Part shown: positions 5,114 to 24,178 of the stretch, piece after piece | How positions within the stretch are numbered: the stretch's first letter is position 1 | How the letters are laid out: each line of letters starts with the position of its first letter | Source of the DNA: an uncultured Lachnospiraceae bacterium | Lineage (GTDB): Bacteria > Bacillota > Clostridia > Lachnospirales > Lachnospiraceae | Assembly (NCBI GenBank): GCA_902793335.1 | Contig: CADBCZ010000066.1 | Location: 1-32,641 of the forward strand | Direction: 5' to 3' | DNA: 32,641 nt | The notes under the pieces: model-generated | Databases searched by the model: none | The model's input: only the letters and a program-made list of their open reading frames with translations | What the model was told of the DNA's origin: nothing | Program-made: the position numbers and the translations under genes

Positions 5114-5148
5114 GCTCTCACCTCTGAAAAAAGTTTTCAAACAACTTA

Positions 5149-5221: not shown

Positions 5222-5226
5222 GGCAT

Positions 5227-5249: not shown

Positions 5250-6534
5250 ATTTACACAGGAATATATCAATTACAAACATTCCCGTCTCTTCTTTAAACT
5301 TAATATCACCGTTATATTTTTCTATACACGATTGTACATTTAAAAGACCAATTCCTCTGTTTTTTCCTTTATTTGAAACCGGGATTCCCTTCTTCCACTT
5401 AATGGTTTGATAACTGTTCTTAATCTGTATCGATATCATTTCATGAAATGAATGTATTGAAATATCGACAACTCTCATACCATCAACCTGCCCGCAGGCT
5501 TCTATTGAGTTATCCAACAGGTTTCCAAATATAGTTGTAACATCAATAGGTTCAATAAAGTCCAACATAACATTATCAACTTTTATATTGAAATCAATTC
5601 CTTTTTCCGACATTATAGTGGACTTATCCGTTAATAAAATATCCAATATCGGATTACCTGTATATCTAACCGGAATTAACGGTTGCAACATCCCCTCTAT
5701 CTTATTGGTATACCTGACTGCATCCGCAACATTTCCACTTCGATATAATTTTTCTATCGAGTCTATATGCTTATTAACGTCATGTAATATCTGAACGGTT
5801 CTTTTATATTTTTGTTCCTGATGTAAATAGTACTCGTATTGCATGTTCGCCTGTTTTTCTAATGCCCTGACCTCATACTCCAAATAATTTTTCTCATTCA
5901 TTACTTTTACAAAGTATAATAGGTAAAGATCAGCAAGTACAATGCAACCAAGATTTAAAATCAAAAGATAGTTATTATCCTTTTTATCAGCGATTCCCAC
6001 AATCACAATTATATCGATCAACGAATACATCAATATTATGCAATTAAATATATACTGCATATTAGTAAAGGGTGTGTGTTTCAGCAGCCTCTCAACCACC
6101 ATGTAATATAAAAATATAAGTATAATCTTTGAGAATGCCACCTCCAGACAATTGCGCATAACCTCGTCAATTATCTCTATATCCAGCATCTCCATAATCC
6201 AGTCAATTAACCCAACGCCAAGAGATTCGCAAATAGCCATAACAAAAAGAACTACTTCCGATTCAAGTAACCTTTTAACCGGACGTTCGACTTCTTCAAA
6301 ATATAGAAAAACTGAACAAATTCCAACAGCAACAACCCATATTGCAAAATTCAAAAAAGCGATATCTAACAAATTAACAAATGCAATTCCAAGTGTTATC
6401 ACTAACTCTATATTGATGTATAAAATATTTGACTTTACTGTCCTCTTATATCTACCATCCATATATTGCATTATAATTTTTATGATAATAAAACAGGATA
6501 CACAGGAACATAAAAACAAAATAATTTTTTCCAT
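5248..6534 (-). CDS. agrC: AgrC-type sensor histidine kinase (GHKL)
   Basis: 428 residues. The N-terminal half (about 1-210) holds six or seven hydrophobic segments, the peptide-sensing membrane domain. A short coiled segment leads to the phosphoacceptor region QILHDVNKHI with H251. The GHKL ATPase domain follows, with N-box NLLDNSIEACG (N338/N342) and glycine box NRGIGLLNV (about 392-400). These are the marks of AgrC-like kinases, which lack a classical HisKA dimerisation sequence. It starts 8 nt after the response-regulator stop codon, so the two are co-transcribed. It presumably senses the AgrD-derived cyclic peptide made two genes downstream. Confidence 0.9.
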   Translation of the reverse strand: MEKIILFLCSCVSCFIIIKIIMQYMDGRYKRTVKSNILYINIELVITLGIAFVNLLDIAFLNFAIWVVAVGICSVFLYFEEVERPVKRLLESEVVLFVMAICESLGVGLIDWIMEMLDIEIIDEVMRNCLEVAFSKIILIFLYYMVVERLLKHTPFTNMQYIFNCIILMYSLIDIIVIVGIADKKDNNYLLILNLGCIVLADLYLLYFVKVMNEKNYLEYEVRALEKQANMQYEYYLHQEQKYKRTVQILHDVNKHIDSIEKLYRSGNVADAVRYTNKIEGMLQPLIPVRYTGNPILDILLTDKSTIMSEKGIDFNIKVDNVMLDFIEPIDVTTIFGNLLDNSIEACGQVDGMRVVDISIHSFHEMISIQIKNSYQTIKWKKGIPVSNKGKNRGIGLLNVQSCIEKYNGDIKFKEETGMFVIDIFLCK

Positions 6535-6542
6535 ATTTATAC

Positions 6543-7283
6543 CTACACTAAATGATGTATATAATCATTCATTATCTCCTTAAACCTGGCGACTCTTTTC
6601 TGTGATAATGGCAAACTCTTTCCATTATCCATATACACTTCATAGCCTTGAATCTTTTCTATGTGGCGCAAATTCACCAAACATCCTCTACAATTAACAG
6701 CAAATCCATAATCAGCCAGTTCATCAATGAGTTTTCCCATAACATACGAGTATTCGTATACTGCATCCTTAAGAACAATTGAAATTTTACGTTTAGATTT
6801 AATATATTCAAAATATATAATATCATTTATATTTATTTTAAGTATGGGATACTCTCTCCCATGATCATTTGTGACCTTATAAAACGTTTTCTCTATAGAG
6901 TCTTTCAGTCCCTCAATCTCCGGAATCAAATCATGCATTTGCTCTATAACCTTGTCCACAATCAATGGTTTGCACAAAAACGAAAATGCATGTATTTCAT
7001 TAATTGCCTGCATACAGTATTGTTCAAAACTAGTTATGTAGATTATTTTTATCTGAGGGTATCTTGATTTTAACTGTCTGCCCAAATCAATTCCATTTTC
7101 TCCGTTAATTTCGATATCAAGTATTGCCAAATCAATATCTTGCTTATCTGCCAGCATTTCCTCTGCGGACGTAAACAACTGCAATACATTATCTATTCCC
7201 AATTTATCAAAAACAGAAGTAAAAATGCCTTTTGCACTACTCAAATCTTCACTGTTATCGTCACATATAGCAACCTTTATCAT
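6543..7283 (-). CDS. agrA: LytTR response regulator (AgrA-type)
   Basis: 246 residues. The receiver domain (1-~120) has the acidic pair D8/D9, phosphoacceptor D56 in AILDIEING, T84 in YITS and K105 in CKPL. The LytTR DNA-binding domain (about 140-240) includes YFEYIKSKRKISIVL and the closing NCRGCLVNLRHI. LytTR proteins bind two direct repeats in adjacent grooves, and two such paired sites lie before agrB and agrD. GGTGAT precedes the ATG, and a strong promoter lies ~70 nt upstream. Confidence 0.9.
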   Translation of the reverse strand: MIKVAICDDNSEDLSSAKGIFTSVFDKLGIDNVLQLFTSAEEMLADKQDIDLAILDIEINGENGIDLGRQLKSRYPQIKIIYITSFEQYCMQAINEIHAFSFLCKPLIVDKVIEQMHDLIPEIEGLKDSIEKTFYKVTNDHGREYPILKININDIIYFEYIKSKRKISIVLKDAVYEYSYVMGKLIDELADYGFAVNCRGCLVNLRHIEKIQGYEVYMDNGKSLPLSQKRVARFKEIMNDYIHHLV

Positions 7284-7719: not shown

Positions 7720-8280
7720 TTAATATGATTCTATTTGTGTTGCATATTGGGTATTATCAAATTCGCCTTTCTCTATCTCAACTACTTTTTCAAAACAAAA
7801 TTTCCACAAATGATCAAGTTGAAACTTACTATATCTTCTATTAGAACTTTTTGCCTTGTAGCTAGCTGCCCACTGTCTAGAACTAGGATTTTTCACTCGT
7901 TCATTATAAACCAAAACAAAAACAGAATTTCTTCTAAATTCTTCCAGACAACACCCCGTTATATCCATATAAATCATAGCACTTGACAATGCCTTTTCAA
8001 TGATTTCACTACTTTTGAAATCTCCATTTTTGAACTCAGCCATACACAACTTGTCATTCAATTTATAAAGAGCATCAACTGACTTAGCATTATCTTCATT
8101 CATGCCATGATCTTTTAAATAATTCTCTTTCACCTCATCAAAATCAATTACTTTTGTTTTCACCTGAGTCATATACTCAGATGGATTTTTACTATTATCT
8201 TCCGAAGTAACTTTCAATGTTTTATGAACTTCCGGATTACTAAATTCGTCAAAATGTTTTAAACAAAAATAATCCTTCAT
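7720..8280 (-). CDS. PD-(D/E)XK-like nuclease-fold protein, partner of the AAA ATPase
   Basis: 186 residues, no named family recognised. The segment SVDALYKLNDKLCMAEFKNG (about 67-86) fits the PD-(D/E)XK pattern: D69, then E82-x-K84 on the next strand, with a helix starting SSEIIEKAL after it. That would make it a small metal-dependent nuclease, although the motif is short and could mislead. Its ATG overlaps the stop of the upstream ATPase gene in an ATGA, so the two are translationally coupled and probably act as a complex. ATPase-plus-nuclease pairs with this layout are common in anti-phage systems, and Thoeris is nearby; that role is inference. Confidence 0.6.
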   Translation of the reverse strand: MKDYFCLKHFDEFSNPEVHKTLKVTSEDNSKNPSEYMTQVKTKVIDFDEVKENYLKDHGMNEDNAKSVDALYKLNDKLCMAEFKNGDFKSSEIIEKALSSAMIYMDITGCCLEEFRRNSVFVLVYNERVKNPSSRQWAASYKAKSSNRRYSKFQLDHLWKFCFEKVVEIEKGEFDNTQYATQIESY

Positions 8281-9512
8281 AATTGTGAATCCAACTCCTT
8301 ACTTGCCCACAAAAATGGTCTTGTTAAGACATCATATATTTTATCAATATTTTCAGTATAATCAAAAACATTAGTGATAGTAGAATCATTTCTATCTTCT
8401 TCAAGCAAATAATATTTACAATCATCCGCTATTTCATGTTTCTTACTGTATAACTCAATATAACTAAGAAATTCTGAGCTATGAGTGCTAATGACAAAAT
8501 TAATCTTTAATATTTTCTGTAAAAGAACAATCATTTCGGCATATAATAACATCCATTCAGGATGTAGATGAGCTTCAGGCTCATCTAAAATAACAATTCC
8601 GTTTTCTTCAAGACACCCCTTTGACAACAACGTTTTAATTACCACAAAGCTCTTCATTCCCGTTGACAGATTCTTGACAGATAAGCGTTGTTTCAACTTT
8701 TTGTCTTTATATTCATACTCATCTTCATCTTTCTGAGCAACTATTCCACCACAAATATTATCTAATTTTTCATATAATTCTGTGAGGCGTTCGTTAACAA
8801 TATAGTCATCTATAGCAGTCAACTTTTCCTCTTCTCTGCCTCTAAGTTTCTTTATTATATCCATTCTATGAGAATAATCACCTGAATAAGAAAATTGATA
8901 TATATCATCTATAACATAAGGATCATCAATATATGCAATATCTTTCAACAATTTTATTTTATCATTTATTAATACTTTGTCATCGTCTATTTGTATTTTA
9001 ATACTTTTGTCTTTAATAATTACCTCAATCTCAGATGTCTCTCCAGGATAATTAATATGTCCAACCTGAGAATCAAATTCAGATTCAAACCGTTTTTTTA
9101 TAATAACATTCAAAATATCATCATCAGAAATAATAATAGCATTCTTAATTCTTTCAACGACATCTTTATCGATTTCTTCTTTACTAATTCCTGTAAGATT
9201 TTCCAACTGAATAAGTATATTTTCATCTGTCGGTGAATGAAACATATAATCAGTTATTTCATTAATCTTTTTTCGATTTTTTATTGAACTTCTATAATTA
9301 CCTTGTATCAACCTATAATTCCTATATATTGACGTTCTCCGTTCTTCTTCTATCTTATTCTCATAATCATATAAACTATTATAAATGCAATACAAGGCCT
9401 TCCCTATTGTACTTTTACCTGTTCCATTCGTTCCTGCAAGAACCGTAATACCATTGATATTAATAGACGTTTTATTATAAAATCTACCAATGTTTTTTAA
9501 ATTTAATAACAT
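8277..9512 (-). CDS. AAA ATPase of the OLD/RecF-like (AAA_21) type
   Basis: 411 residues. Walker A GTNGTGKST at 27-35, ABC-like signature LSTGMKS at about 282, Walker B ILDEPEAHLHPEW at about 307-319, and the switch STHS near 342. This is the SMC/RecF-like ATPase core seen in OLD nucleases, PARIS, Septu, Gabija and Abi ATPases. No TOPRIM nuclease domain is present at the C-terminus, and the partner gene downstream may supply the nuclease instead. The middle part (about 60-270) is charged and probably a coiled-coil or lid insertion. AAAGGAT precedes the ATG. Confidence 0.82.
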   Translation of the reverse strand: MLLNLKNIGRFYNKTSININGITVLAGTNGTGKSTIGKALYCIYNSLYDYENKIEEERRTSIYRNYRLIQGNYRSSIKNRKKINEITDYMFHSPTDENILIQLENLTGISKEEIDKDVVERIKNAIIISDDDILNVIIKKRFESEFDSQVGHINYPGETSEIEVIIKDKSIKIQIDDDKVLINDKIKLLKDIAYIDDPYVIDDIYQFSYSGDYSHRMDIIKKLRGREEEKLTAIDDYIVNERLTELYEKLDNICGGIVAQKDEDEYEYKDKKLKQRLSVKNLSTGMKSFVVIKTLLSKGCLEENGIVILDEPEAHLHPEWMLLYAEMIVLLQKILKINFVISTHSSEFLSYIELYSKKHEIADDCKYYLLEEDRNDSTITNVFDYTENIDKIYDVLTRPFLWASKELDSQL

Positions 9513-9586
9513 AGAGAATACTCTATCCTTTCTATAGTCATTTTGTTAAACATTCGTGTCTTTCTTCACTAAATAATTAATATGAT

Positions 9587-9614
9587 ATTATCTACATGAT
9601 TGAATTAAAATCAA
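9587..9614 (-). promoter_or_regulatory. candidate promoter of the ATPase/nuclease operon
   Basis: Minus-strand TTGATT (9609-9614), a 16-nt spacer and GATAAT (9587-9592), about 75 nt before the ATPase ATG. Confidence 0.5.
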
Positions 9615-9733
9615 TCTCCTTAACTAGTTTAACATATCATTTATGTATAATTTAGTCAACAGAGATTTTAAGATGATTTTCCGCTCATCTTTTTAATATT
9701 ATATCTGTTTTGTACAACCATCTGCTTCAAATT

Positions 9734-9853
9734 CTATGCACTTACAGATTCGATTTTATTTACACCTATTGTCATAGTCTTACCAAATCCTTTTCTTGAC
9801 GGATACATATAATATTCCCAATTCAGCTTTATATCGTTGCAATTGATTATCAT
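9734..9853 (-). CDS. possible 39-residue small protein
   Basis: An isolated short frame beginning MIINCNDIKLNWEYYMYPSR and ending KIESVSA. A strong GGAGGGGG lies 21 nt upstream of the ATG, too far to serve it directly, and no better start in frame is seen. It resembles the end of a larger protein and may be a gene remnant. No family recognised. The rest of 9615-9942 shows nothing else. Confidence 0.25.
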   Translation of the reverse strand: MIINCNDIKLNWEYYMYPSRKGFGKTMTIGVNKIESVSA

Positions 9854-9942
9854 GTCCTGATGAATGAACTTTATCCCCCTCCACTATTTATCTTTATGTA
9901 AATTTCTATCGTTTTATCAGAATTATCAGTCAATATATAATA

Positions 9943-9970
9943 AAAAAAGAACCCGACGCATCAGGTTCTT
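9943..9970 (-). terminator. intrinsic terminator of the c-di-GMP phosphodiesterase gene
   Basis: Minus strand: AAGAACCTGA, loop TGCG, TCGGGTTCTT, then TTTTT. A 10-bp stem (one G-T pair) with a clear U-tract. Confidence 0.85.
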
Positions 9971-10074
9971 CCAGGTGATTTCAACTTATTGCGAAAATAC
10001 TTTCTGTCTGTTTTTTCACTTTTAACTGGTTTATACTTTGATGGTGTTTGCGGATAAAAGCCGTTTTCACGCAT
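9961..10074 (-). CDS. possible 37-residue basic small protein overlapping the phosphodiesterase stop
   Basis: An ATG inside the last codons of the upstream gene (…AATAATGCGTGA) opens a 37-codon frame rich in Lys/Arg/Tyr (MRENGFYPQTPSKYKPVKSE…). Its TGA falls inside the terminator stem. It fills exactly the gap between the phosphodiesterase and its terminator. There is no separate ribosome site, so translation would depend on coupling. It could also be a chance frame. Confidence 0.3.
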   Translation of the reverse strand: MRENGFYPQTPSKYKPVKSEKTDRKYFRNKLKSPGRT

Positions 10075-14900: not shown

Positions 14901-15113
14901 GTATCTTGGAATCATATCCTTAATAACACGTGTAAGCACGTGGCCTATATGTGGCTTACCGTTAGCGGTTGGTGGTCCGTCATAAAATGTGTAGACAGGC
15001 TTACCTTCCTTCTCTTTGATTGACTCCTCAAAGATCTGATTCTTTTTCCAGAAATCAAGGACCTTTTCTTCTCTCTCAACAAAATTCAAGTTGGTTGATA
15101 CTTTCTCGTACAT
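11925..15113 (-). CDS. ileS: isoleucyl-tRNA synthetase, type 2 (eukaryote-like)
   Basis: 1062 residues. A class Ia synthetase that charges tRNA-Ile with isoleucine. HIGH motif at 55-58 in NGKPHIGHVLTR and KMSKS near residue 612 in GQKMSKSKGNAV. Between them lies the CP1 editing region, with YCPRCGTPLSSHEVAQGYK and TTTPWTLPSN. The GKPHIGH form, KAGWDTHGLPVE and the length over 1030 place it in the eukaryote-like IleS2 group rather than the ~930-residue bacterial type 1 group. IleS2 enzymes are generally insensitive to mupirocin. It is monocistronic, with a consensus promoter, a long structured leader and a terminator. Confidence 0.96.
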   Translation of the reverse strand: MYEKVSTNLNFVEREEKVLDFWKKNQIFEESIKEKEGKPVYTFYDGPPTANGKPHIGHVLTRVIKDMIPRYQTMKGHKIIRKAGWDTHGLPVELEVEKLLGIDGKEQIEEYGLDPFITKCKESVWKYKGMWEEFSGKVGFWADMDDPYVTYHNDFIESEWWALKKIWDRDLLYKGFKIVPYCPRCGTPLSSHEVAQGYKTVKERSAIVRFKVIGEDAYFLAWTTTPWTLPSNVALCVNPDEKYVKVKAVDGYTYYMAEALLEQVLGKLIVVKKGEEDKALKPFDNGKAYEILETYVGTDLEHKEYEPLFACAAEVAAKQKKKGHFITCDSYVTMTDGTGIVHIAPAFGEDDANVGRKYDLPFVQFVDGKGNMTEETPFAGLFVKDADPKVLVDLDSRGLLFDAPKFEHDYPFCWRCDTPLIYYARDTWFIKMTAVRDDLVKNNNKVNWIPESIGKGRFGDWLENVQDWGLSRNRYWGTPLNIWECECGKRHAIGSIAELKEMSDNCPDEIELHRPYIDAVTIKCPDCGKEMHRVPEVIDCWFDSGAMPFAQWHYPFENEDIFKENYPADFISEAVDQTRGWFYSLMAISTLIFNEAPYKNVIVLGHVQDKDGQKMSKSKGNAVDPMDALNQYGADAIRWYFYTNSAPWLPNRFHEDAVVEGQRKFMGTLWNTYAFYVLYANIDEFDPTKYSLDYDKLSVMDKWLLSKLNTAVKTCDENLGSYRIPEAARALAEFVDDMSNWYVRRSRERFWAKGMEQDKINAYMTLYTALVTISKASAPMIPFMTEDIYQNLVVGIDKSAPKSIHLCDFPVCDEKLVDKELEADMDEVLHIVVMGRAGRNAANIKNRQPIANMYVKAEKELSDFYKEIIADELNVKAVTFKDDVSEFSSYSFKPQLKTVGPKYGKQLNGIREYLTNVDGTAAMATLKSEGALKFDVDGVEVSLAEEDLLIELAQSPDYETQADNVVTVVLDKKLTPELIEEGFVREIISKVQTMRKEAGFEVMDKITISVSGNDKIAEVIKNNQDVIFTDVLATAIEYDGAKGYTKNWNINGEKVDLGVSKN

Positions 15114-15168
15114 ATCACAAGTTCCCTTTCTTAATATTATTACATTTCATAACTATTCTTTTCTTCAC

Positions 15169-15384
15169 GGTTACTATTCCCAGTACTTATTATAACTTCG
15201 TGGTACTCCACATTTACAAGCCACAAACCATCTGCCAAGGCACATGGCGCAACTTCGTTGCTTCTGTTCGTGGCTGTATGTGGAGTTCCTGCTTCGCAGT
15301 TACGCTACAAGTTATGATAAGCGTTCAATTGTGCAGGCCCATTGAAGCGCTTATCATAGCTTATAGCGACCACGAATAGTAACC
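15169..15384 (-). ncRNA. 216-nt structured leader of ileS, not a canonical T-box
   Basis: On the minus (mRNA) strand the outer stem pairs 15374-15384 with 15169-15179 perfectly over 11 bp. Inside are a long hairpin near 15290-15365 (CGCTATAAG/CTTGTAGCG, then a 17-bp stem with one bulge), a CTGC-GAA-GCAG hairpin, a stem ACTCCACAT/ATGTGGAGT continued by AGCCAC/GTGGCT, and GCAAC-GAA-GTTGC within it. The promoter start site falls about 4 nt before the outer stem. The T-box antiterminator motif (AGGGTGG-ACCGCG) is absent. It may be a new leader class or a MITE-like folded repeat that landed in the leader. Confidence 0.6.
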
Positions 15385-15394
15385 TGCTTTGCAC

Positions 15395-15423
15395 ATTCTA
15401 GCACATATTGTAAGTAGTGTCAA
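15395..15423 (-). promoter_or_regulatory. ileS promoter
   Basis: Minus-strand TTGACA (15418-15423), a 17-nt spacer and TAGAAT (15395-15400): practically consensus. It lies inside the tail of the HipA-like pseudogene, about 282 nt before the ileS ATG. Confidence 0.85.
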
Positions 15424-15679
15424 AACATTGATTTTTAATGTATTTAATTAAAAAACATAATCCATCAGACTTTCCATATATCTGTTCTTCAAATGATCCG
15501 CTCAATGTACATGTCGAAAATATATTACTATTATCAGTGCGAAGAGCTCTTCCATTATCAAAAATCGGAGCCATCAAACGACCCATTTTATCCATCTTAT
15601 AAAAATAGTCGTCTTTTTTATATTTAACCTGTGTTCCCTTCGTAGTACTGGCGCTATTATCCTTATCTCCTCTGCTTGC
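15398..15679 (-). pseudogene. HipA-like kinase fragment with internal deletion
   Basis: An open frame of 93 codons without a proper start. Its upstream part, SASTTKGTQVKYKKDDYFYK, resembles the N-terminal region of HipA-like kinases. It is joined after MDKMGR directly to LMAPIFDNGRALRTDN, which resembles the C-terminal catalytic segment (…APIFDNG-SL…) of the same family. The ~100 or more residues expected between are missing. The frame ends in the -10 box of the ileS promoter. No ribosome site. The family call rests on two short motifs, so it is moderate. Confidence 0.5.
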
Positions 15680-15744
15680 CTATTAGTGATGTAGTTGTTC
15701 CGACTGCCCTTAACATTATTAAGTTCACTTCCGATTTTAAACCA

Positions 15745-17004
15745 CTATAAATTCTTAGTATGTTTTATTCCAATAAATGGTTCGTACTTTTTTCTGACTC
15801 TTTTTACCATTTCATTAAAACTATTCTTTTTTATAACAACATCATATTTTCCTGCAACAGTTCCAAACGTTATCTTATCCTTCGATGCATTTTTATTATA
15901 TATTTTTATATAAGAATAGCCTCTATGCTCTTCTGAAGAATATCTGACTATCTTTAATATCTTATCGTATTCCTGTTTGATCAGTTTATCATAAAATGCG
16001 TTGATCCGTTCATCTGTATCAAGCAGCATGATATATACAACTTTTTCATCACACGGATAATCCCTCTTAATATAGTTTCTATAGGGAGATGTCCGCATGG
16101 TCTTAACCAGATTCTGATTCACCTCATCAGGCGTATCGTTATAATATATCAGCAGCGTATCATCTATTATGACATTTATATAAGGATACATGTTACCTGC
16201 ACTTATCAGATCAACCAGCTCTTTTGCTGTATCAGGTGATATTACAAAAACAGATTTATATTCATTATTCTTTACGTCATAAAGAGCCGCTCCATCCATT
16301 ACAACTATCGGATATTTAAGGTTTATGTCTGATAAAGGCTCCAAAACTGAAGCCGGCGTGCGGACTGTAGAGAGTGTAAATCTCATTCCATCTTCAATCA
16401 TTCTGTTCAGCTCAACCTTGGAAAATGCACTCACCTTATTATTCTTGTCAACTAAGATATCATCTACTCCCGATACAAACAGCGTTTCTCTATCAGGGTT
16501 GAAACAGATTCTCATATTATTTAAGAAAAGTCCTATGACTATTCCGATCATTGTATCCAGAAATCTGTTCCATACAAAACTATACGGATTAATATCCCCG
16601 ATATGATTTATGACAATACTTAAGAATACCACGCATGAAAAATAAGAAGCCTGCTTCTTATTTATTAGCACCGTCGAATATATTACCAGTATCACACCTA
16701 TAAAAATAAAACCAATATTAAACAGAACACCGTAAGCTTCTCCGGAAATATGGTGAGGATATATCAGAATATATATCAGTCCGTATACCGCACCGACTAC
16801 GGTTCCTGTCATTCGCTGTAAAGCATTTGATAATGTATTGCTTCGGTACATTTGTATGCACCATAAAGCTGCAAGCTGGGAATAAAAAACTATGCCGCCT
16901 TCACCGCGTATGATATTGATCACCATACACAGTGAGACAGCTACGGCTGATTTTATTATTCTCATCCCTATTCCGGGAATTGCAAACTCATGCTTATCTT
17001 TCAT
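15745..17004 (-). CDS. FUSC/ArAE-type membrane protein fused to a degenerate HAD domain
   Basis: 419 residues. The first ~165 hold about six hydrophobic segments of the FUSC/aromatic-acid-exporter type ([32 protein letters not shown]). From ~172 on, the sequence follows a Cof-type HAD phosphatase: [17 protein letters not shown] in place of the DxDGT nucleophile motif, then TLSTVRTP and [11 protein letters not shown]. The nucleophile Asp is replaced by Gly and the C-terminal GD-ND metal motif reads GTVAGKYD, so phosphatase activity is unlikely and a ligand-sensing role is more plausible. Its ATG overlaps the icd stop (ATGA), making it the last gene of the seven-gene operon, where it could export the product. 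The HAD call is by pattern; the export role is inferred. Confidence 0.7.
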
Positions 17005-18209
17005 AGATTATGTTCCAATGTTTCCCTGATTGCTTTTATAAAATTCTCACTATTAAGAACAGTAACTTTTTTCAAGGATGTAATAAGAGCCAGATCCTTA
17101 GTCATTTTTCCCGATTCAATAGTGCTTATAGTAGACGCTTCAAGTTTATCAGCAAAATCAATAAGTTCCGGAATCTTATCCAGTTCACCTCTTTTTCGAA
17201 GTGCACCTGTCCAAGCAAAAATAGTAGCTACCGAATTCGTTGATGTCTCTTCTCCCTTCAGATGCTTATAATAATGTCTCTGAACAGTTCCGTGAGCTGC
17301 CTCATATTCATATACCCCACTTGGTGATACAAGAACAGAAGTCATCATAGCCAGCGAACCAAATGCGGAGGAAAGCATATCACTCATCACATCACCATCA
17401 TAGTTCTTACAAGCCCAGATAAATCCGCCCTCAGATTTCATAACTCTGGCAACTGCATCATCAATCAGTGTATAAAAAAATTCTATACCTGCCTCATCAA
17501 ATTTTTCCTTATATTCAGCTTCAAATATCTCATTAAAGATATCCTTAAATGTGTGGTCATATTTTTTAGAGATAGTATCCTTCGTTGCAAACCACAGCGT
17601 CTGTTTAGTATCAAGGGCATAATTAAAGCAGCTTTTTGCAAAACTTTCAATAGATGGTTCCAAATTATGCATACCCTGAACTATTCCGGCAGAATCAAAT
17701 TCATGAACCAGAACCGAATCTGTAGATCCGTCTTCAGCTGTATATACCAATTCCACCTTTCCCGGTCTCGGAATCTTCATCTCAGAAGCCTTATATACAT
17801 CTCCATACGCATGTCTGGCTATTGTTATAGGAGCCTTCCAATTCTTTACACATGGTTCAATACCTTTGACAATGATAGGCGCTCTGAATACTGTACCATC
17901 AAGGATAGCTCTGATAGTTCCATTTGGACTCTTCCACATTTCCTTTAGATTATATTCCTCAACACGAGCAGCATTCGGAGTGATCGTCGCGCATTTTACA
18001 GCAACGCCATATTTCTCTGTCGCATAAGCCGAATCAAAAGTAACCTTATCATCCGTTTTATCCCTGTTTTCCAATCCCAGATCATAATACTCTGACTTCA
18101 GGTCTATAAATGGCAGGATAAGTTCATCCTTGATCATCTTCCAGAGGATTCTGGTCATTTCATCCCCATCCATTTCTACCAAAGGTGTTTTCATCTGTAT
18201 CTTATTCAT
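17001..18209 (-). CDS. icd: NADP-dependent isocitrate dehydrogenase (eukaryote-type)
   Basis: 402 residues, homodimeric eukaryote-like subfamily. It oxidatively decarboxylates isocitrate to 2-oxoglutarate with NADP+. Substrate and metal motifs are [58 protein letters not shown] and [12 protein letters not shown]; the HGTVQRHY segment fits NADP specificity. It sits between a deacylase-like gene (24 nt) and the FUSC-HAD gene (4-nt overlap), not with citrate synthase or aconitase. Within this operon it could supply 2-oxoglutarate/glutamate or NADPH for the neighbouring ligase pathway. GGAGG lies 11 nt before the ATG. Confidence 0.95.
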
Positions 18210-18233
18210 AATTCTTTATTCCTCCTCTGTTTA

Positions 18234-19163
18234 TCATGCATGTTCAATTAGTTTTATTACCGCCGTATTAGCATAGGTAATCGGTTCAATATGAATAAAA
18301 AAGATAATTCCATTGATTGGAGAATACAGCGTTTCTATAATGTTCCCCTCATATGGATTTATAATATTTGCCAGCGGTCTTCCGGCCTCAACCATATCCC
18401 CGGCTTTTACCAGCGGCTCATAAAACCCTGACTTAGCTGTCCTGACCGAGATAAAATCCTTATCATCGATCAATCGGATATTTTTCTCGCCGATAGCACT
18501 GTACTTTATCATTCCGCTGTTTGCCATAAAGTTCATCACGGCCAGCACGGCCTGACCTGCACCTGTACTGCTGATCCTTGAAGTTGTATTTGTGTACAGG
18601 GAAAATGCAGTCGTATTCCACACCTGCCAGTTATAATTAAGCGTTGCTGTATCATATGGTCTCACAGTTCTTTCAACTATATATTTAAGCCCGAACTTTT
18701 CAGCATCTTCTCTTTGTGTGAATCCCTCTTTCATATACCTGATATGCGGTACAAAATCTCCGGGCATATAAAACGAAGTAAACTGTATTCCGTATTTATA
18801 GTCTTTTATTTCTTTAAAAACTCCATCTGCAATTCTCTGAGTTGTCTCTCCCAGATCGTAGCCGGGAAACATTCTGTTAATATCCGTATTGTCTGTAGAC
18901 CAGAATCTTTTCTGAATATTGACTGAGTATGGATTGATGGATGGAATAATCAGTATTTTCACTCCATCCTTTATTCTCCCCTCTTCCTCAAGCTGTTTCA
19001 TTTTTTTTACAAGCTGGGAACAACAATATATCTGCTGCACTTCATTTCCCCTTGAATTACCTATCATACAAACTGATTCTTCCCCCTGACCGAATTCATA
19101 ACCGGTAACTCTGAAGTCATCACGATACATTCCTTTTATCTCATATATTATTCTCTTATTCAT
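18234..19163 (-). CDS. AstE/AspA-like deacylase homologue with degraded metal site
   Basis: About 309 residues from the preferred start. The fold follows the succinylglutamate desuccinylase/aspartoacylase (M14-like) family and its upstream neighbour: IPSINPYSVN, DINRMFPG, and a C-terminal barrel with ISVRTAKSGFYEPLVKAGD. The zinc motif HGDE is SRGNE here (R38, E41), the second zinc histidine (DIHAS in the neighbour) is replaced in YGIQFTS, and the catalytic Glu of VVEMG aligns with a Thr in LYTNTTS. It is therefore probably inactive as a hydrolase and may bind substrate or partner the active paralogue. I chose the ATG at 19163 (GAGG 9 nt upstream, 8-nt overlap with the preceding gene). The ATG at 19181 overlaps the Shine-Dalgarno itself. 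Confidence 0.75.
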   Translation of the reverse strand: MNKRIIYEIKGMYRDDFRVTGYEFGQGEESVCMIGNSRGNEVQQIYCCSQLVKKMKQLEEEGRIKDGVKILIIPSINPYSVNIQKRFWSTDNTDINRMFPGYDLGETTQRIADGVFKEIKDYKYGIQFTSFYMPGDFVPHIRYMKEGFTQREDAEKFGLKYIVERTVRPYDTATLNYNWQVWNTTAFSLYTNTTSRISSTGAGQAVLAVMNFMANSGMIKYSAIGEKNIRLIDDKDFISVRTAKSGFYEPLVKAGDMVEAGRPLANIINPYEGNIIETLYSPINGIIFFIHIEPITYANTAVIKLIEHA

Positions 19164-20118
19164 AGATGCAGACCTCCTCATTCAGTATTCTTCCCATGAG
19201 TGAACCTTCATCTACTATAGGATAATCTCTGATCGTAAAAAGCATTCCTCCCTGAGGTGCCCTCACCTCATCAAGCACTTTTCCCTCCAGGGGATCCACA
19301 ATTCTGCCAACCAGATCTCCCTTTGATACAAATGCACCATGCTTTACCTCTGGAACAAAAAGACCGCTAGCCGATGCATTTAAGTAGCTTACATCCTCCG
19401 GATTCTCTGATATCATCGGAGATCTTACTTCAGGCACTTCTCCCTTCCACATTCCGAGTTCTTTCATCGTATTAAATATGCCGTCTATCAGCTGCTCTCC
19501 ATATTCTCTGGTAAGTCTCATTCCCACACCCATTTCAACTACAAGCACAGGTGTTCCGATACTGTTCAAACTATGCGCAAATGTAGCCTCCAAAACTGTA
19601 CTGGCTCCGTGTACCCATATAAAATCTACATTTGAAAGTTTAGCCAGTGGAACAAGGGTTTCCGCATGTAGTTCATTTATTCTTATCTGTGGTATTTCCG
19701 TAAGATATATATTGCTTGCATGGATATCAAAAACCAGGTCAGAACCGGCCATATCCTCCATAATTCCTGCAGCTATATACTCTGTCATATTGCCATCTTT
19801 GTTTCCGGGAAAGAGTCTATTCATATCAAGATCAAATGCAGGTATTCCTCTGGTAATGGAATCAATTCCAAGAGGATTCATAGCCGGATATATATCGACT
19901 ATTCCCTGCAGATTATCATATTCTTCCATTATCCTTCTTTGAAGCTCGTAGCAGACATACTGCCCTTCAAGCTCATCACCGTGAATACCTGTGACGATGC
20001 TGATCCTTTTTAACGACGCATCATCTTCACTCATTACCTGGGGACATATTCGATTCTTTTTAATCATCAGTTTTTCATCAATAGGAAGATCTACCGATGT
20101 TACAGTCTCTATCATCAT
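19156..20118 (-). CDS. AstE/AspA-family zinc deacylase (succinylglutamate desuccinylase-like)
   Basis: 320 residues. An M14-like amidohydrolase that removes an acyl group from an amino acid such as N-acyl-glutamate or N-acyl-aspartate. Zinc ligands are in TGIHGDELEG (H46, E49) and VFDIHAS (H133). Substrate-binding NPLGID and DMNRLFPG (R101) and the catalytic Glu in VLVVEMGVG (E195) are present. The C-terminal beta-barrel begins near SGLFVPEVKHGAFVSKGD. The exact acyl substrate cannot be read. It lies fourth in the operon, 45 nt after the transglutaminase gene. AAGGAG precedes two adjacent ATGs (20118 or 20115). Confidence 0.85.
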   Translation of the reverse strand: MMIETVTSVDLPIDEKLMIKKNRICPQVMSEDDASLKRISIVTGIHGDELEGQYVCYELQRRIMEEYDNLQGIVDIYPAMNPLGIDSITRGIPAFDLDMNRLFPGNKDGNMTEYIAAGIMEDMAGSDLVFDIHASNIYLTEIPQIRINELHAETLVPLAKLSNVDFIWVHGASTVLEATFAHSLNSIGTPVLVVEMGVGMRLTREYGEQLIDGIFNTMKELGMWKGEVPEVRSPMISENPEDVSYLNASASGLFVPEVKHGAFVSKGDLVGRIVDPLEGKVLDEVRAPQGGMLFTIRDYPIVDEGSLMGRILNEEVCIYE

Positions 20119-20163
20119 GTACTCCTTTTTCAGTTTATCTGTTTGCTGCTTATGACATCTTTA

Positions 20164-20958
20164 TCAATAATATTTCTCTACGATGCACTCTATCTCCTGG
20201 GTCTGAAGTCCACCACCCCACATAACACCTCTGTTTATGGCACAGTCTGTAGCATCTCTTCCTACCCCCAGCTTTATATACTCATCCGTTATCTCTCTGT
20301 TATGTGTCGGATCAAAGGCTATAAAGCTTCCATCGCATACTGCTTCAACCCAGGCATGACTCTGTCCTTCCCCCACGATAAGGCCGCATACGTATCTTGC
20401 CGGAATAGAAAAGGCTCGAAGAAGACTGATATATATATGGGCATAATCCTGACATACACCTTTCCCATTTGCGAAGGCCTCTTCAGCTGTAGTTTCTATC
20501 TCAGTGCTGCCTTTTTCATATCGTATTCTTTCATACAGCTGATTCATAATAAAACGACATTTTTCTTTTTCATCAGTTAGCCCTTTCATCTCGGCCGACA
20601 GCTCATCCACAAATCCCATTATCTTTTCTCCCGAAATGCATTTACCATAGGGATATTTATACATTCCTATCTTGCCGGTGTTCACCCCTCCCTGAACATT
20701 TACCTGATAGGTTTCGACAAGACCCTTGATGACAAATTCAAATTCCGAATGGCTCTCCGGTTCCTGACCGATAATCTGAATATTCCCAAACGAATCAACG
20801 CCTTCTGAATATTGGACATACGGATTTATGCTTATTTCATATGATATATTTCTTTGTCTGAAATCATCTGCCGGTATTGACTTTATCGTAAAATAGCACT
20901 TGTCCACCGGCTTTGAATATTTGATTTTCATCTTATATTCATAGTTCAAAAAAGCCAC
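20164..20958 (-). CDS. transglutaminase-like cysteine peptidase/ligase
   Basis: 264 residues. The transglutaminase-fold catalytic triad is complete: C169 in GKGVCQDYAH, H201 in SHAWVEA, D216 in FDPTHN. An N-terminal beta domain (about 1-110) is typical of the bacterial type found with ATP-grasp and alpha-E genes. It would hydrolyse or transfer an amide/peptide bond on the ligase product. Start is GTG (GTGGCTTTT) with AAGGTGAT just upstream; an ATG one base earlier is out of frame. No signal peptide, so cytoplasmic. Twelve nt separate it from the alpha-E gene. Confidence 0.88.
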   Translation of the reverse strand: MAFLNYEYKMKIKYSKPVDKCYFTIKSIPADDFRQRNISYEISINPYVQYSEGVDSFGNIQIIGQEPESHSEFEFVIKGLVETYQVNVQGGVNTGKIGMYKYPYGKCISGEKIMGFVDELSAEMKGLTDEKEKCRFIMNQLYERIRYEKGSTEIETTAEEAFANGKGVCQDYAHIYISLLRAFSIPARYVCGLIVGEGQSHAWVEAVCDGSFIAFDPTHNREITDEYIKLGVGRDATDCAINRGVMWGGGLQTQEIECIVEKYY

Positions 20959-20970
20959 ATTATCACCTTC

Positions 20971-21639
20971 TTAATATGAAACTATTTTTTCAACATTCGT
21001 GATTATTTTTTCATAATCAAGATTTACGTCATTTATCAGTGTACTCACCCTGCTGAGTGACATATCATCATACTTCATTCCACTTCTTAACACTCGTGGA
21101 ATCATTCTGCGAACCTCCCGAATCAGACGTGGTTTCTCAACCTCCAGCCTTGCATACAAATCAATTCTCTCGATTCTTTTTCCTGCTTTAATGATATTTC
21201 TTATCTGATCTGAATCGATCTGATCATCAACCAGTCCCCAGAATGAAAGAAGATCATCCATAATCTGCTGAAGGTCGATAAGGGGAGCATCGCTTACAGA
21301 TGCATTATTCATTGCATATATCGAAAGCTGAATATATGAAAGTGCCTCAGAACCTATAGTTTCTCTAAGAACTATGGCATTATCATAAGCCCTGTTTAGA
21401 TTACTTATTATGGAATCCGGCACACTGATATCAAAGGGATATCTCTTTAAAAAATCCTCTTTTGATTCATATATATTCGGAATATCCAGGGAGTCACAAT
21501 ATTTCTGATAGCTGTCCTCCGATTCATCAATCATTCTGTCAAAGCTTTCAGAATATATCTTTAGTGTTGTATATACTCTCTCTGTATATCTTCCTAACCA
21601 ATAAAGGTGTTCAACCTGTTCTACTGAAATAATACCCAT
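20971..21639 (-). CDS. alpha-E domain protein (DUF403)
   Basis: 222 residues, essentially all helical. It opens with EQVEHLYWLGRYTERVYTTLKIY, the hallmark start of alpha-E proteins (usually xLYWMGRYxERA), and contains PLIDLQQIMDDLLSFWG and LRSGMKYD. Its biochemical role is unknown; it is nearly always encoded beside a circularly permuted ATP-grasp and a transglutaminase and is thought to act with them in peptide-bond chemistry. Shorter than many family members (~310), which often carry a second repeat. Overlaps the ATP-grasp gene by 19 nt; GGAGGAGG precedes the ATG. Confidence 0.88.
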   Translation of the reverse strand: MGIISVEQVEHLYWLGRYTERVYTTLKIYSESFDRMIDESEDSYQKYCDSLDIPNIYESKEDFLKRYPFDISVPDSIISNLNRAYDNAIVLRETIGSEALSYIQLSIYAMNNASVSDAPLIDLQQIMDDLLSFWGLVDDQIDSDQIRNIIKAGKRIERIDLYARLEVEKPRLIREVRRMIPRVLRSGMKYDDMSLSRVSTLINDVNLDYEKIITNVEKIVSY

Positions 21640-22940
21640 GTATCTTTAAATCCTCCTCCCTGAGATGAATTGACAATAAATGAATCCGGATTTCTTGAAA
21701 ACCTGGTAAGGCCACTCGCCCAGACGTAAGGTTCATCAGCCATCAGGACAAACGCTCTAAGGTCTGCCTTCCTTGGTACTATCTCACCCTCATCCAGAAT
21801 CTCAAGATCCTGAAAATCTATAATCTCCTGTGCTATAAATCTTCTCGGTTCATTCTTTAATAAAACAATAAAATCTTCCTTCTGTTGCTTTGTCATGGTA
21901 TTTCCAAATACCACCCCGTAACCACCGGCTTCGGCCACATCCTTAAGAACCAGCTTGTCAAAGTTCTCAAGAACATACTGCATATCCTCTTCGTAAAACG
22001 GAAGATATGTCGGTGCATTTTTAAGAATCGGCTCCTCCGACAGATAATATCTGATCATCTTAGGAACAAAATAGTATATTCCCTTATCATCTGCGACTCC
22101 ATTTCCCGGTGCATTTATCAGCGCCACATTGCCTTTTCTAAAGACATCATAGATATGTGGTATGCCTATAAGAGACTCCGGATTAAAGTTCATCGGATCA
22201 AGATATTCATCTGATATTCTTCTGTAGACCGCTCCAACTTTTTCCTTCGAGCCATTTGAACTGATATAATACAGAACATCATTTTCAACAAAGAGTTCCG
22301 ACCCTGTCACAAGATGTGCACCAGTCTTTTCAGCAAGATATGAATGTTCAAAATAAGCTGCATTATATCGTCCCGGCGTAAGGATAACAGTATGTCCGCC
22401 GGCATTTACATAGTCCATGGTCTTTCTCAGCAGATCTGCATAATTACGGTTATCCATCAGCTTGACATTATGGAAGGTTTCCGGCGAACTCTTTCGGCAC
22501 AAGTCTCTGGCAATCATCGGATAAGATGCACCTGACGGCACTCTGAGATTATCCTCCAGGATATACCATTCATTATCTTTACCCTTTACCAAATCTATTC
22601 CTGAAATATGAGAATATATTCCTTTCAGTGGCATAACATCTTCACATTCAGCCATATATCCTGAAGATGCATATATAAAGTCTTCAGGTACCACACCGTC
22701 CTTAACAATTCTTTTATCTGAGTAAATGTCCTTCAAGAAAAAATTAATGGCTAAAACTCTTTGTTTAAGCCCCTTTTCCAGCATTTTAAACTCGGTATCT
22801 TCAATAATTCTCGGAATAGAATCAAATGGAAACAACTGTTCCTTAAATGTATTATTCTTATAGATACCAAACTTAACACCATAGCGGGCCAACAAAGTAT
22901 TTATCCTGTCAGTATGCTGAACAAGCTTCTGATTATTCAT
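21621..22940 (-). CDS. circularly permuted ATP-grasp ligase (CP_ATPgrasp type 2)
   Basis: 439 residues. Family segments in order: QLFPFDSIPRII, GLKQRVLAINFFLKDIY, WYILEDNLRVPSGASYPM, LTPGRYNAAYFEHSYLAE, YFVPKMIRYYL, LVLKDVAEAGGYGVVFG (nucleotide-binding lysine and glycine loop), RKADLRAFVL and a closing FIVNSSQGGGFKDTWVL. These enzymes are predicted to form amide or peptide bonds with ATP; substrates are unknown. The protein is somewhat shorter than the usual ~480, with most of the loss at the N-terminus. It is the first gene of the operon, with GGGAGG before the ATG and a promoter plus terminator-like hairpin in the leader. Confidence 0.9.
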   Translation of the reverse strand: MNNQKLVQHTDRINTLLARYGVKFGIYKNNTFKEQLFPFDSIPRIIEDTEFKMLEKGLKQRVLAINFFLKDIYSDKRIVKDGVVPEDFIYASSGYMAECEDVMPLKGIYSHISGIDLVKGKDNEWYILEDNLRVPSGASYPMIARDLCRKSSPETFHNVKLMDNRNYADLLRKTMDYVNAGGHTVILTPGRYNAAYFEHSYLAEKTGAHLVTGSELFVENDVLYYISSNGSKEKVGAVYRRISDEYLDPMNFNPESLIGIPHIYDVFRKGNVALINAPGNGVADDKGIYYFVPKMIRYYLSEEPILKNAPTYLPFYEEDMQYVLENFDKLVLKDVAEAGGYGVVFGNTMTKQQKEDFIVLLKNEPRRFIAQEIIDFQDLEILDEGEIVPRKADLRAFVLMADEPYVWASGLTRFSRNPDSFIVNSSQGGGFKDTWVLFQ

Positions 22941-23007
22941 TTTGTTCGTCCTCCCTTCATGACTCAGGACATTTACAGTCCATTTTTATTCATTTTTTTA
23001 AAAACAA

Positions 23008-23046
23008 AAAGGCGCCGGTTGAAACCAAAGTTTCACCAGCGCCTTT
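23008..23046 (-). terminator. leader hairpin with U-tract upstream of the ATP-grasp operon (unit A)
   Basis: The minus-strand RNA begins close to AGCAAAGGCG. AAAGGCGC (23046-23039) pairs with 23015-23008, with an inner GGTGAAAC/GTTTCAACC stem, then TTTTTGTTTTT. This is a terminator or attenuator placed ~10 nt after the -10 box and ~65 nt before the first gene. It shares AGCAAAGGCG, GGTGAAAC and the closing GCC-U-tract with the unit at 23561-23589. Confidence 0.7.
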
Positions 23047-23056
23047 GCTAGTCACT

Positions 23057-23085
23057 ATAATAAACAAAACTCAGATGCTTTACAA
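23057..23085 (-). promoter_or_regulatory. promoter of the seven-gene ATP-grasp/deacylase/icd operon
   Basis: Minus-strand TTGTAA (23080-23085), a 17-nt spacer and TATTAT (23057-23062). The start point would fall just before the leader hairpin. No other promoter-like gap exists before the end of the FUSC-HAD gene, since the gene gaps are 45 nt or less. Confidence 0.55.
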
Positions 23086-23132
23086 TGTGCAATCTGCCCA
23101 GTCTTGTTGGATAATATATACAATTCATCCTC

Positions 23133-23538
23133 TCATAAAGTGGAGGCATCAACAAATTTCTTAAATATCATTCTGCTCTTTTCATCCGTTTTATAAGAAA
23201 ACTCCGGATGCCACTTCCCGAACTGCCTGATGATGATAACTGTTTACTTCAAGCAATTCAGTATTTAAACACTTATACAGTGGTGAATCCTTCACTATTT
23301 TTACCTTATGGACCGGAATATCATATGGCGGAGTCTGATGGTGTTCAACCTCAGACTTATGCTGCGTTGGAAGATCCTGATAGAGAGAACCGCCAAGTGC
23401 CGCATTGATAAACTGTATTCCTCTGCATATGCCAAATATCGGCTTATCAATCTCAATAGCTTTTTTAAGAATATATGTTTTGAGATAAAACCTTTGAAAA
23501 TCTTCGTCATTTCCATCGGTCCATTTGTATATGATCAT
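23133..23538 (-). pseudogene. class I glutamine amidotransferase (peptidase C26, PuuD-like), decayed
   Basis: Homologous to gamma-glutamyl hydrolases. DKPIFGICRGIQFINAALGG carries the nucleophile Cys, followed by SLYQDL and NSYHHQAVR. The ~60-residue N-terminal part is absent. After HHQAVR about 40 residues are missing, and the C-terminal end KWHPEFSYKTDEKSRMIF continues in another frame to a TGA at 23135-23133. So the enzyme is broken in at least two places. A GGAGG nine nt before ATGATCATA (23538) still marks an expressed start. It lies upstream of the ligase operon with a related promoter/hairpin leader, hinting that it once belonged to the same gamma-glutamyl pathway. Confidence 0.75.
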
Positions 23539-23560
23539 TTTGCCCATCCTCCAAAAAAAG

Positions 23561-23589
23561 AGGCGTTTCACCAATAAGATGAAACGCCT
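23561..23589 (-). terminator. promoter-proximal hairpin with U-tract (unit B)
   Basis: Minus strand AGGCGTTTCA, a 9-nt loop, TGAAACGCCT, then CTTTTTTT that runs straight into the GGAGG ribosome site of the C26 pseudogene. The hairpin starts ~15 nt after the -10 box, so transcripts would be stopped at ~45 nt or carry the hairpin at their 5' end. Confidence 0.75.
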
Positions 23590-23604
23590 TTGCTTCCAGA
23601 AGTA

Positions 23605-23632
23605 ATTTTAGCATATTTTTTTATTTTGTCAA
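23605..23632 (-). promoter_or_regulatory. strong promoter of unit B
   Basis: Minus-strand TTGACA (23627-23632), a 16-nt spacer ending in TGC (extended -10) and TAAAAT (23605-23610). It is one of the best promoter matches in the window, yet the gene it serves is broken. Confidence 0.8.
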
Positions 23633-23759
23633 TATTTTTCGAAGTTTTGGACGGAGTAAACTTATTGTCAGTTGGGAAAGAATAGAATGATCCTAGAAGA
23701 TATAGAATCTTTTCAACTTTTTTCATTCTACATCCGTTTTGATTTGAGGTCAAATATTA

Positions 23760-23990
23760 TATATATCTTACACGTTCTTTCTGATCAACCATTCCGTCTG
23801 TTCCTGTTGCCGGAAGCCGCCGTTCCATCTCTTTTTCGCGACGACACTTTACAAGATCAACGACTTTTTCACGACCATTATTTCAGACAAAACAACGCAA
23901 CTTACACATTCTGTCACATCCGATCTCACTCCAACCCATAGGCCTTGAACTCATACGATCTGATAATACATTACATTCAGATTCCCTTAT
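23760..23990 (-). pseudogene. ISLre2-family transposase C-terminal remnant
   Basis: Read on the minus strand, a frame gives NVLSDRMSSRPMGWSEIGCD, then RMCKLRCFV, a stop, NNGREKVVDLVKCRREKEME and PATGTDGMVDQKERVRYI. VLS-R-SSRPMGWS followed by a basic region with an NGG-like turn is characteristic of the C-terminus of ISLre2 (UPF0236) transposases. An in-frame stop and loss of everything upstream make it a dead remnant. It shows that a transposon once inserted between the C26 gene and the Hip-associated gene. I cannot see its terminal inverted repeats. Confidence 0.7.
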
Positions 23991-24178
23991 TTTTTCCCCT
24001 ATCAGGTCTCGTATAACCATATATAACGATATAACACAAGGGAAGAAGTGAGGGAAAGCTTAAGTCGTTAAATCTCAGTGTTTTCAAGGCTTGGCGAGGT
24101 CGCATATAACATCATACGGCATCTTAATAAGGTTCATAAACGGTTGTATTTCCACCTGTAATATGATCTACCATCAAA

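Follow-up and report, generated by a model that had tools for sequence, protein, structure and literature searches.

The contig CADBCZ010000066.1 of an uncultured Lachnospiraceae bacterium (assembly GCA_902793335.1), analyzed at its full length of 32,641 nucleotides (nt) and called the window below, carries on its minus strand, at 15745-22940, seven open reading frames (ORFs). Five of them form a conserved core: an ATP-grasp ligase, an alpha-E protein, a transglutaminase-like protein (TGase) and two AstE/AspA-like proteins, AstE1 and AstE2. The strongest new fact is a nitrogen attenuator that is common to this operon and to nitrogen genes. As the operon shares this RNA switch with genes of ammonia and glutamine metabolism, a role in coping with scarce nitrogen is suggested, and we lean, with some reserve, towards the view that the five core genes, standing under an ANTAR-type attenuator and including the AstE1/AstE2 pair, represent a system of nitrogen stress that makes and breaks amide bonds. 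Gene content and order, the lesion of AstE2, the leader element and the set of genes sharing it were established by computation.

The window belongs to a 3.6-Mb draft genome (G000, contig C66; genomes, contigs and loci are labeled G, C and L). Among the matches listed in a scan with AstE2, its closest named relatives are Eubacterium sp. RGIG4867 (L131, AstE2 99% identical) and Lachnospiraceae bacterium UBA2864 (L132, 98% identical), both rumen-type metagenome-assembled genomes. Pfam searches confirmed the seven families that had been named for these ORFs in the original prediction, made from the sequence of the window alone, and all seven lie on the minus strand: a circularly permuted ATP-grasp ligase (21621..22940; CP_ATPgrasp_2, 441 bits), a short alpha-E protein (20971..21639; Alpha-E, 78 bits), the TGase, a transglutaminase-like cysteine hydrolase (20164..20958; Transglut_core, 76 bits), the zinc deacylase-type protein AstE1 (19156..20118; AstE_AspA_cat, 83 bits), the putative conserved pseudo-deacylase AstE2 (18234..19181; AstE_AspA_cat, 35 bits), and two optional neighbors, NADP isocitrate dehydrogenase (icd, 17001..18209; Iso_dh, 183 bits, and 675 bits with the NADP-dependent model NF006156, cut-off 335) and a FUSC/ArAE half-transporter joined to a degenerate Cof-type HAD domain (FUSC-HAD, 15745..17004; FUSC_2, 45 bits, and alignment). 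The junctions measure -19, +12, +45, -26, +24 and -4 nt, so that the predicted gaps of 45 nt or less were right, and a simple terminator scan of 15100-24000 revealed, on the minus strand between the seven ORFs, only weak terminator-like sites within genes. The ATP-grasp protein is closely related to 3n6x (E 2.6e-113), and residues C169, H201 and D216 of the TGase are kept in 35/36 sequences. The alpha-E protein has an all-helical predicted model (predicted local distance difference test, pLDDT, 92) and many invariant charged residues; a Foldseek comparison of this model with PDB gave nothing at E <= 0.001. In L132, whose genome is otherwise near-identical to the window, TGase and AstE1 form a single ORF of 605 amino acids (aa) at 8209-10026, which is either a natural fusion or an assembly error.

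A search for Alpha-E (PF04168) in 299 genomes of the same family identified it in 37, the window included, and the surroundings were fetched for the other 36. The AstE pair follows the trio of ATP-grasp, alpha-E and TGase in 33 of these 36 loci; hence the core is not a chance cluster, and the association is not unique to this genome. Wherever the contig permits, the order is ATP-grasp, alpha-E, TGase, AstE1, AstE2, L042 being the exception. Three loci lack the pair: L034 and L050 run off the contig, while L042 is a real absence. The contig of L035 begins after ATP-grasp, and two loci that look decayed, L060 (alpha-E with stops) and L065 (core in pieces), are both counted among the 33. The overlap between ATP-grasp and alpha-E is exactly 19 nt long in 30 of the 37 loci, including the window; the other spacings in the remaining seven are explained by start-codon choice, a gap or a missing gene.

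Beyond the family, Alpha-E was found in 12/391 genomes of the class and 9/398 genomes of the phylum. Fifteen further class and phylum loci were read: nine had all five genes with a short alpha-E (L116-L121, L123, L124 and L130; L120 belongs to the same family as the window), two had a long alpha-E and the AstE pair (L127, L128), three had the trio without the pair (L125, L126, L129), and the contig of L122 ends after a fusion of alpha-E with TGase, a fusion also present in L129, from a genome of a different class. A scan of named genomes with the AstE2 alignment yielded at least 581 relatives, of which the best 80 were analyzed; these partly overlap the loci described above (e.g. L134, L135, L136, L150, L169). 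AstE1 accompanies AstE2 in 79 of the 80 loci, the exception (L161) starting at a contig end, and a rule combining ORFs and BLAST found TGase in 74, alpha-E in 69 and ATP-grasp in 69. The core thus consists of five conserved genes, to which icd and the FUSC gene are optional add-ons. The idea that the genes act as one functional unit is supported, as is the description of the trio as known but functionally unsolved.

In many genomes the region 5' of the ATP-grasp gene contains a sigma-A-like promoter and then a hairpin, CAAAGGCG...CGCCTTTTT, whose 5' side can form an alternative short stem with C-G closing around the hexaloop AAAGGC; a hexaloop with A in the first and G in the fourth position is among the features of ANTAR targets described in the consulted part of PMC3369931. 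In the window this attenuator (23006..23056, minus strand; 34.0 bits with the covariance model R1 introduced below) has a 6-bp stem, the A1/G4 hexaloop and a 3' side overlapping a U-tailed terminator hairpin. The putative promoter (TTGTAA, 17 nt, TATTAT; 9/12 consensus matches) lies at 23057..23085 on the same strand, and this call rests on its position beside the attenuator, the scan overall having given 34 such sites versus 33.1 in shuffles. The simple terminator scan does not list the attenuator, and Rfam gave no match at the gathering score.

A rule requiring the hexaloop, a G-C closing pair, a stem of at least three pairs and an overlapping U-tailed terminator matched 21/35 operon leaders versus 5/410 control upstream regions and 0/700 first-order Markov shuffles. 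The control matches precede an asnB-like gene (L057), a FUSC-HAD gene and an amino acid ATP-binding cassette (ABC) ATPase gene (L048), and a 1257-aa ORF as well as AstE1 itself (L040). In the best-80 set, which shares some leaders with the first one, the element stands in front of ATP-grasp, or of the gene that opens its run, in 40 of 66 testable operons versus 6/543 other genes (Fisher p 1e-38, overstated as the loci are related); three leaders that were too short and 11 loci without ATP-grasp were left out. Here the control matches were an asnB-like gene (L134), a GATase protein read as purF (L141), an amtB-like ORF (L162), a 170-aa ORF (L169), and a class III aminotransferase and a Na+/H+ antiporter-family protein (L180). 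Among the named carriers of the operon, the Butyrivibrio strains XPD2006 and YAB3001 (L163/L164) have the element in front of amino acid importer genes; in Eubacterium plexicaudatum ASF492 (L142) the rule detected none.

The pairing itself was assessed on 111 distinct sites picked by loop, closing pair and downstream T-run. At the three stem positions that follow, pairs form in 86, 90 and 74 sites, exceeding all 500 shuffles (maxima 73, 77 and 68), whereas positions 4-6 are not above shuffles; a promoter is recognizable 5' of 62 of these sites versus 87/555 random positions. Two other readings of the leader were considered, first an ordinary terminator, which was dropped, and second a sequence-specific DNA operator, against which the covariation of the stem and the existence of stems of differing sequence argue. 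In four loci (L045, L051, L057, L167) two attenuator hairpins stand in tandem before the operon.

Model R1, built from the operon leaders and run on 12 genomes, gave 68 matches at E <= 0.1. We read 57 match regions, the other 11 being four reverse echoes, three tandem copies within fetched regions, two operon-leader sites of G023 and two window sites. Forty-four of the 57 lead into the operon, nitrogen or linked genes (35/48 if leaders of the operon used in training are excluded); 26 of these 44 first-gene calls were tested with Pfam and the rest were read by eye. The first genes comprise nine operon leaders and one separate AstE1; six type III glutamine synthetases, two glnA, eight amtB or glnK and two gltB; five amino acid ABC genes and one peptide-type ABC permease; two pyrG, one purF, one carA and one asnB; and one each of FUSC-HAD, a clostripain-family protease, PxpB (5-oxoprolinase), LL-diaminopimelate aminotransferase and a cytidylate-kinase-like gene. 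The remaining 13 regions are two contig ends, three without an ORF by the rule and eight with genes of another or unclear kind, including an AraC-type regulator, an HlyD-family protein and a sulfatase-family protein. The proposed link to glutamate and nitrogen metabolism was therefore right, and is stronger than the window alone could have told.

In the window's genome R1 found eight distinct sites and one palindrome echo, where a rigid pattern gave one site. They precede amtB, gltB, carA, pxpB, the aminotransferase gene, the kinase-like gene, the core operon and a gene remnant upstream of it. The last site (23557..23601, minus strand; 27.9 bits, E 0.048) is a second ANTAR-type attenuator, which also occurs in L131; the remnant (23191..23574, minus strand; Pfam) begins as a GNAT gene and continues as the central part of a C26 (gamma-glutamyl hydrolase-like) gene; in L132 these two genes are separate ORFs.

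Three members of this gene set are worth separate mention. The CTP synthase gene pyrG, usually regarded as CTP-controlled, has the same leader element in L278, L295 and L083. A clostripain-family protease gene has the element in L300 (G190:C67), possibly reflecting nitrogen-controlled proteolysis. In L277 (G151:C100) an ANTAR-type leader also precedes an AstE1-like gene that stands apart from the operon of this genome, on a different contig.

The candidate trans-acting factor is an ANTAR protein: exactly one above the cut-off was found in each of the 14 family genomes tested (G227 has a second, weak match below it), and in all 14 its gene directly follows a glutamine synthetase gene (Gln-synt_C). 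The operon leader shares with the targets of EutV- and NasR-type antiterminators, as far as these are described in the consulted part of PMC3369931, the A1/G4 hexaloop, the conserved closing pair, the overlap with a terminator, the association with nitrogen genes and the presence of an ANTAR protein in the genome. It differs in being a single hairpin at or next to the likely transcription start: an upstream second hexaloop hairpin (P1) was seen in 2/42 leaders versus a shuffle mean of 4.0, and the distance from the -10 box to the stem is below 21 nt in 28 of the 32 leaders whose promoter was recognized, which leaves no room for it there.

The second distinctive trait of the operon is the AstE pair, examined in a joint alignment of 34 AstE1 and 34 AstE2 proteins. 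AstE1 retains H46, E49, H133 and E195 in 33/34 sequences, the remaining copy being a 116-aa fragment (L065). We take residues 46, 49 and 133 to be the zinc ligands (HxxE, H) and 195 the catalytic Glu of the AstE/AspA family motif, and alignment to 2qj8 and 6twm also supports this assignment. By this measure AstE1 has the metal site and the catalytic residue of the family and AstE2 does not: AstE2 has R at 46 and Y at 195 in all 34 copies and A, T, P, S or V at 133, with E49, R90, D98, N100, R101 and FPG, and with them a DxNRxFPG pocket, retained throughout. The prediction of two AstE/AspA-like deacylases therefore holds for family membership, but not for the second protein as an enzyme, which has lost the residues at 46, 133 and 195 in 34/34 sequences. 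Decay of AstE2 is unlikely given its 59% mean column identity and 54 invariant columns, and its model (pLDDT 86.7) matches AstE/AspA-type structures (3cdx, E 7.9e-21; also DoeB and CphZ). Hence, as judged from conservation, AstE2 is an apparent conserved pseudo-enzyme, and AstE1 and AstE2 probably form a constant active/inactive pair and a complex. The AstE, AspA, DoeB and CphZ deacylases resemble the pair in fold and, for AstE1, in the metal site; what sets the present case apart is the constant pseudo-enzyme neighbor. The second AstE of L127 and L128 has retained the zinc ligands but carries M in place of the catalytic Glu, as if catalysis had been lost before the metal.

These observations can be combined into the following model. 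Transcription would start at, or a few bases before, the ANTAR-type hexaloop hairpin, and, unaided, would be halted by the overlapping terminator after about 50 nt. Under nitrogen shortage, the product of the ANTAR gene next to glnA would hold the hexaloop hairpin, so that the polymerase passes; we infer that such antitermination sets the on-state, and the same control would cover glutamine synthetases, AmtB/GlnK, GltB and amino acid importers. The ATP-grasp enzyme, coupled to alpha-E, would join a carboxylate and an amine at the expense of ATP, and TGase and the zinc deacylase AstE1 would cut or remodel the amide product in a cycle of ligase and hydrolase reactions. AstE2, with its substrate pocket and without the zinc site, would serve as partner or gate of AstE1 in an AstE1:AstE2 complex. 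Citrate synthase and icd, where present, would feed ammonia assimilation with 2-oxoglutarate. The substrate that fits best is an N-acyl amino acid or an isopeptide with a free carboxylate.

Published data on related operons agree with a nitrogen role. Excerpts of the respective papers report that the trio homologs I35_5080-5083 are strongly NtrC-dependent in Burkholderia cenocepacia (PMC5491218), that Anbu increases in Pseudomonas putida under nitrogen limitation (PMC5666114, PMC6376114) and that in marine metagenomes the trio domains group with urea metabolism (PMC3597751).

Several points weigh against the proposed nitrogen system or its control by ANTAR. By the rule, no element was found in 26/66 and 14/35 operon leaders; some of these leaders are located behind other genes, others diverge in sequence, and some may simply be without the element. 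The canonical ANTAR target has two hairpins, of which the upstream one was not found, so that ANTAR is no more than a putative binder of this leader. Both alternative helices covary in 43 aligned leaders (P2, 0.518 versus 0.287; terminator, 0.657 versus 0.280; 55 leaders were found and 12 left out by eye), but this result is partly circular, as the rule and the model selected for stem and terminator; the less biased test is that of the 111 sites selected by loop and closing pair. Outside the family, the presence of ANTAR and that of the element agree weakly (ANTAR in 13/15 genomes, the element in 8 of these 13 and in neither of the two without ANTAR, G494 and G844), 15 genomes being too small a sample for a test. 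Genes of amino acid and nucleotide synthesis also belong to the co-regulated set, which therefore fixes neither the role nor the direction of control. Finally, in the portions of the literature consulted, Anbu and its operon were unchanged in expression under several other conditions (PMC5666114), and, against physical coupling, pull-downs of the Yersinia Anbu operon with Anbu as bait gave no specific complex (PMC6376114).

The Anbu operon is the closest known system. A circularly permuted ATP-grasp protein, alpha-E and TGase stand in one operon in both cases, and the nitrogen link is known in proteobacteria from the excerpts cited above. The present operon differs in having the AstE1/AstE2 pair and no Anbu (the ORF list of the window contains no Anbu-type ORF near the core), a short divergent alpha-E, and an RNA attenuator rather than NtrC. 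According to parts of PMC5666114 and PMC6376114, the trio has been proposed to tag proteins or peptides; in such a scheme the ATP-grasp enzyme would attach an amino acid or peptide to proteins, TGase and AstE1 would remove it, and the AstE pair would stand in Anbu's place. Proteasome-fold proteins (PF00227) were found in none of the 25 same-family operon genomes searched, so that AstE could indeed replace Anbu. Among all 36 operon genomes searched, PF00227 was found in eight, above the cut-off in seven, in open frames of 184-206 aa which lie off the operon-bearing stretch and which, from their size, we take to be HslV. Nevertheless, the regulon consists of small-molecule nitrogen genes, the substrates of AstE relatives with an established activity are acyl amino acids or dipeptides, and no tag gene was noticed beside the core, although no search was aimed at tag genes. 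We consider tagging unlikely.

Making and breaking of amide bonds remains our preferred reading; according to the original prediction, a glutamyl conjugate or peptide is made, trimmed and exported. In the first 37 family loci icd adjoins the core in the window only. Within the fetched flanks of the best 80 loci, icd was found in five (L131, L133, L145, L167, L169), as was citrate synthase (L133, L145, L166, L167, L169), and icd is also near the core in the class or phylum loci L119 and L121, the latter matching L169. The arrangements vary: AstE2-icd-FUSC-HAD (the window and L131), AstE2-citrate synthase-icd-FUSC-HAD (L133), AstE2-FUSC-HAD-citrate synthase (L166), citrate synthase-icd-FUSC-HAD-ATP-grasp (L167 and L169, where the citrate synthase-icd-FUSC unit is equipped with a nitrogen switch of its own), icd-ATP-grasp (L119), and, in L145, citrate synthase-icd with three ORFs separating icd from ATP-grasp. 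Against about 0.5 expected by chance, icd lies within 10 kb of the core in 5/80 loci (p ~2e-4, overstated because several of the loci are close kin). Its link to the core is real but optional.

FUSC-HAD is found in 16 of the 80 flanks. It has the FUSC domain of the FUSC/aromatic acid exporter family in a single N-terminal membrane part (FUSC_2/ArAE_1) and differs from that family in being half-size, in its C-terminal degenerate Cof-type HAD domain and in lying sometimes beside an amino acid importer. The HAD part of the window protein scores 51 bits against a cut-off of 137, and DxD, motif I of HAD hydrolases, is missing in four of five aligned copies including the window's (L048 has DMD). FUSC-HAD occurs in 36/299 family genomes, 11 of which also have alpha-E (p 0.0016); copies of at least 45% identity over at least 300 positions occur in 14 genomes, 10 of them with alpha-E (p 1.8e-7), three genomes with shorter matches at this identity being left out. 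That FUSC-HAD is specific to the core was nevertheless rejected, as other copies are located elsewhere in genomes, in L223 and L227 together with an importer.

The transporter that recurs beside the core is a polar amino acid ABC importer, which together with a cytidylate-kinase-like gene forms one run with the core in 10/80 loci (L158, L159, L163, L164, L173, L174, L177, L179, L181, L192); it was also found beside the core in L033, L044 and L048 of the first family set. Its binding protein belongs to SBP_bac_3 and has as its nearest PDB match 2v25, the 'major cell-binding factor', known as the aspartate/glutamate receptor PEB1a. One neighbor (c9), tried as a C26 hydrolase, was rejected, since Pfam assigns it to Cytidylate_kin2.

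Against this background, a pathway that makes and exports a glutamyl conjugate appears very unlikely, even though icd and citrate synthase recur near the core and a C26 gamma-glutamyl hydrolase-like gene stands upstream of it in L132, with its remnant in the window: the FUSC protein has half the usual size and ends in a degenerate HAD domain, it accompanies a minority of the loci and also an importer away from the core, and the recurrent transporter is of the uptake type. The label 'exporter' is thus doubtful, judging by the domain make-up of FUSC-HAD, and a role of the operon in export is not supported. A FUSC domain is indeed present, as predicted, but in half a transporter; citrate synthase and/or icd do recur with the system, but as options; and a glutamyl conjugate as the product remains a guess, as nothing identifies the substrate. 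In all, the observation of a coupled operon is confirmed and its interpretation is partly supported.

It is also hardly probable that the operon serves a cyanophycin-like nitrogen store, with ATP-grasp building an amide polymer or dipeptide reserve which TGase and AstE1 mobilize: the cyanophycin dipeptide hydrolase CphZ is among the fold matches of AstE2 and, as 8ein, weakly resembles AstE1 in sequence, and nitrogen control would suit a reserve, but CphZ ranks below 3cdx and DoeB, reserves are usually built in nitrogen excess, and no CphA- or CphB-like gene was noticed beside the core, where no dedicated search was made.

Three other loci of the window, all on the minus strand, deserve mention. 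At 288-3572 lies a Thoeris defense locus with ThsA (SIR2-STALD, 619 bits) and two ThsB-type TIR proteins. At 4523-7283 an AgrB-like protein (Pfam AgrB) adjoins, by reading, histidine-kinase-like and LytTR-type response-regulator-like ORFs, an agr-type peptide signaling set. At 7720-9512 an AAA-type ATPase matching several defense ATPases overlaps a 186-aa ORF for which Pfam and PADLOC gave no match, a possible two-gene defense or conflict system.

Returning to the amide-bond system, we tentatively propose, as a reading somewhat short of even chances, that it is a nitrogen-stress pathway salvaging or holding nitrogen in amide bonds, in which an active/inactive deacylase pair replaces Anbu; that the single hexaloop hairpin right at the 5' end of the transcript is a new form of ANTAR attenuator; and that the same chemistry underlies the NtrC-driven trio operons of proteobacteria, i.e. 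that one pathway stands under unrelated regulators across phyla. A literature search of limited extent, which did not cover the original gene-neighborhood study, found no prior report of the AstE pair with the trio or of the ANTAR link. The trio is widespread, and its product is not described in the literature searched. The switch shared with glutamine synthetase and the ammonium transporter gives the trio a physiological setting in Lachnospiraceae-type gut bacteria and, as it agrees with the proteobacterial NtrC data, indicates the growth condition in which to seek the product, while the conserved putative pseudo-deacylase offers a second handle on the pathway. If ANTAR acts on the single-hairpin leader, this would relax the two-hairpin rule for finding ANTAR regulons, a rule under which a regulon common among gut bacteria may have gone unnoticed.

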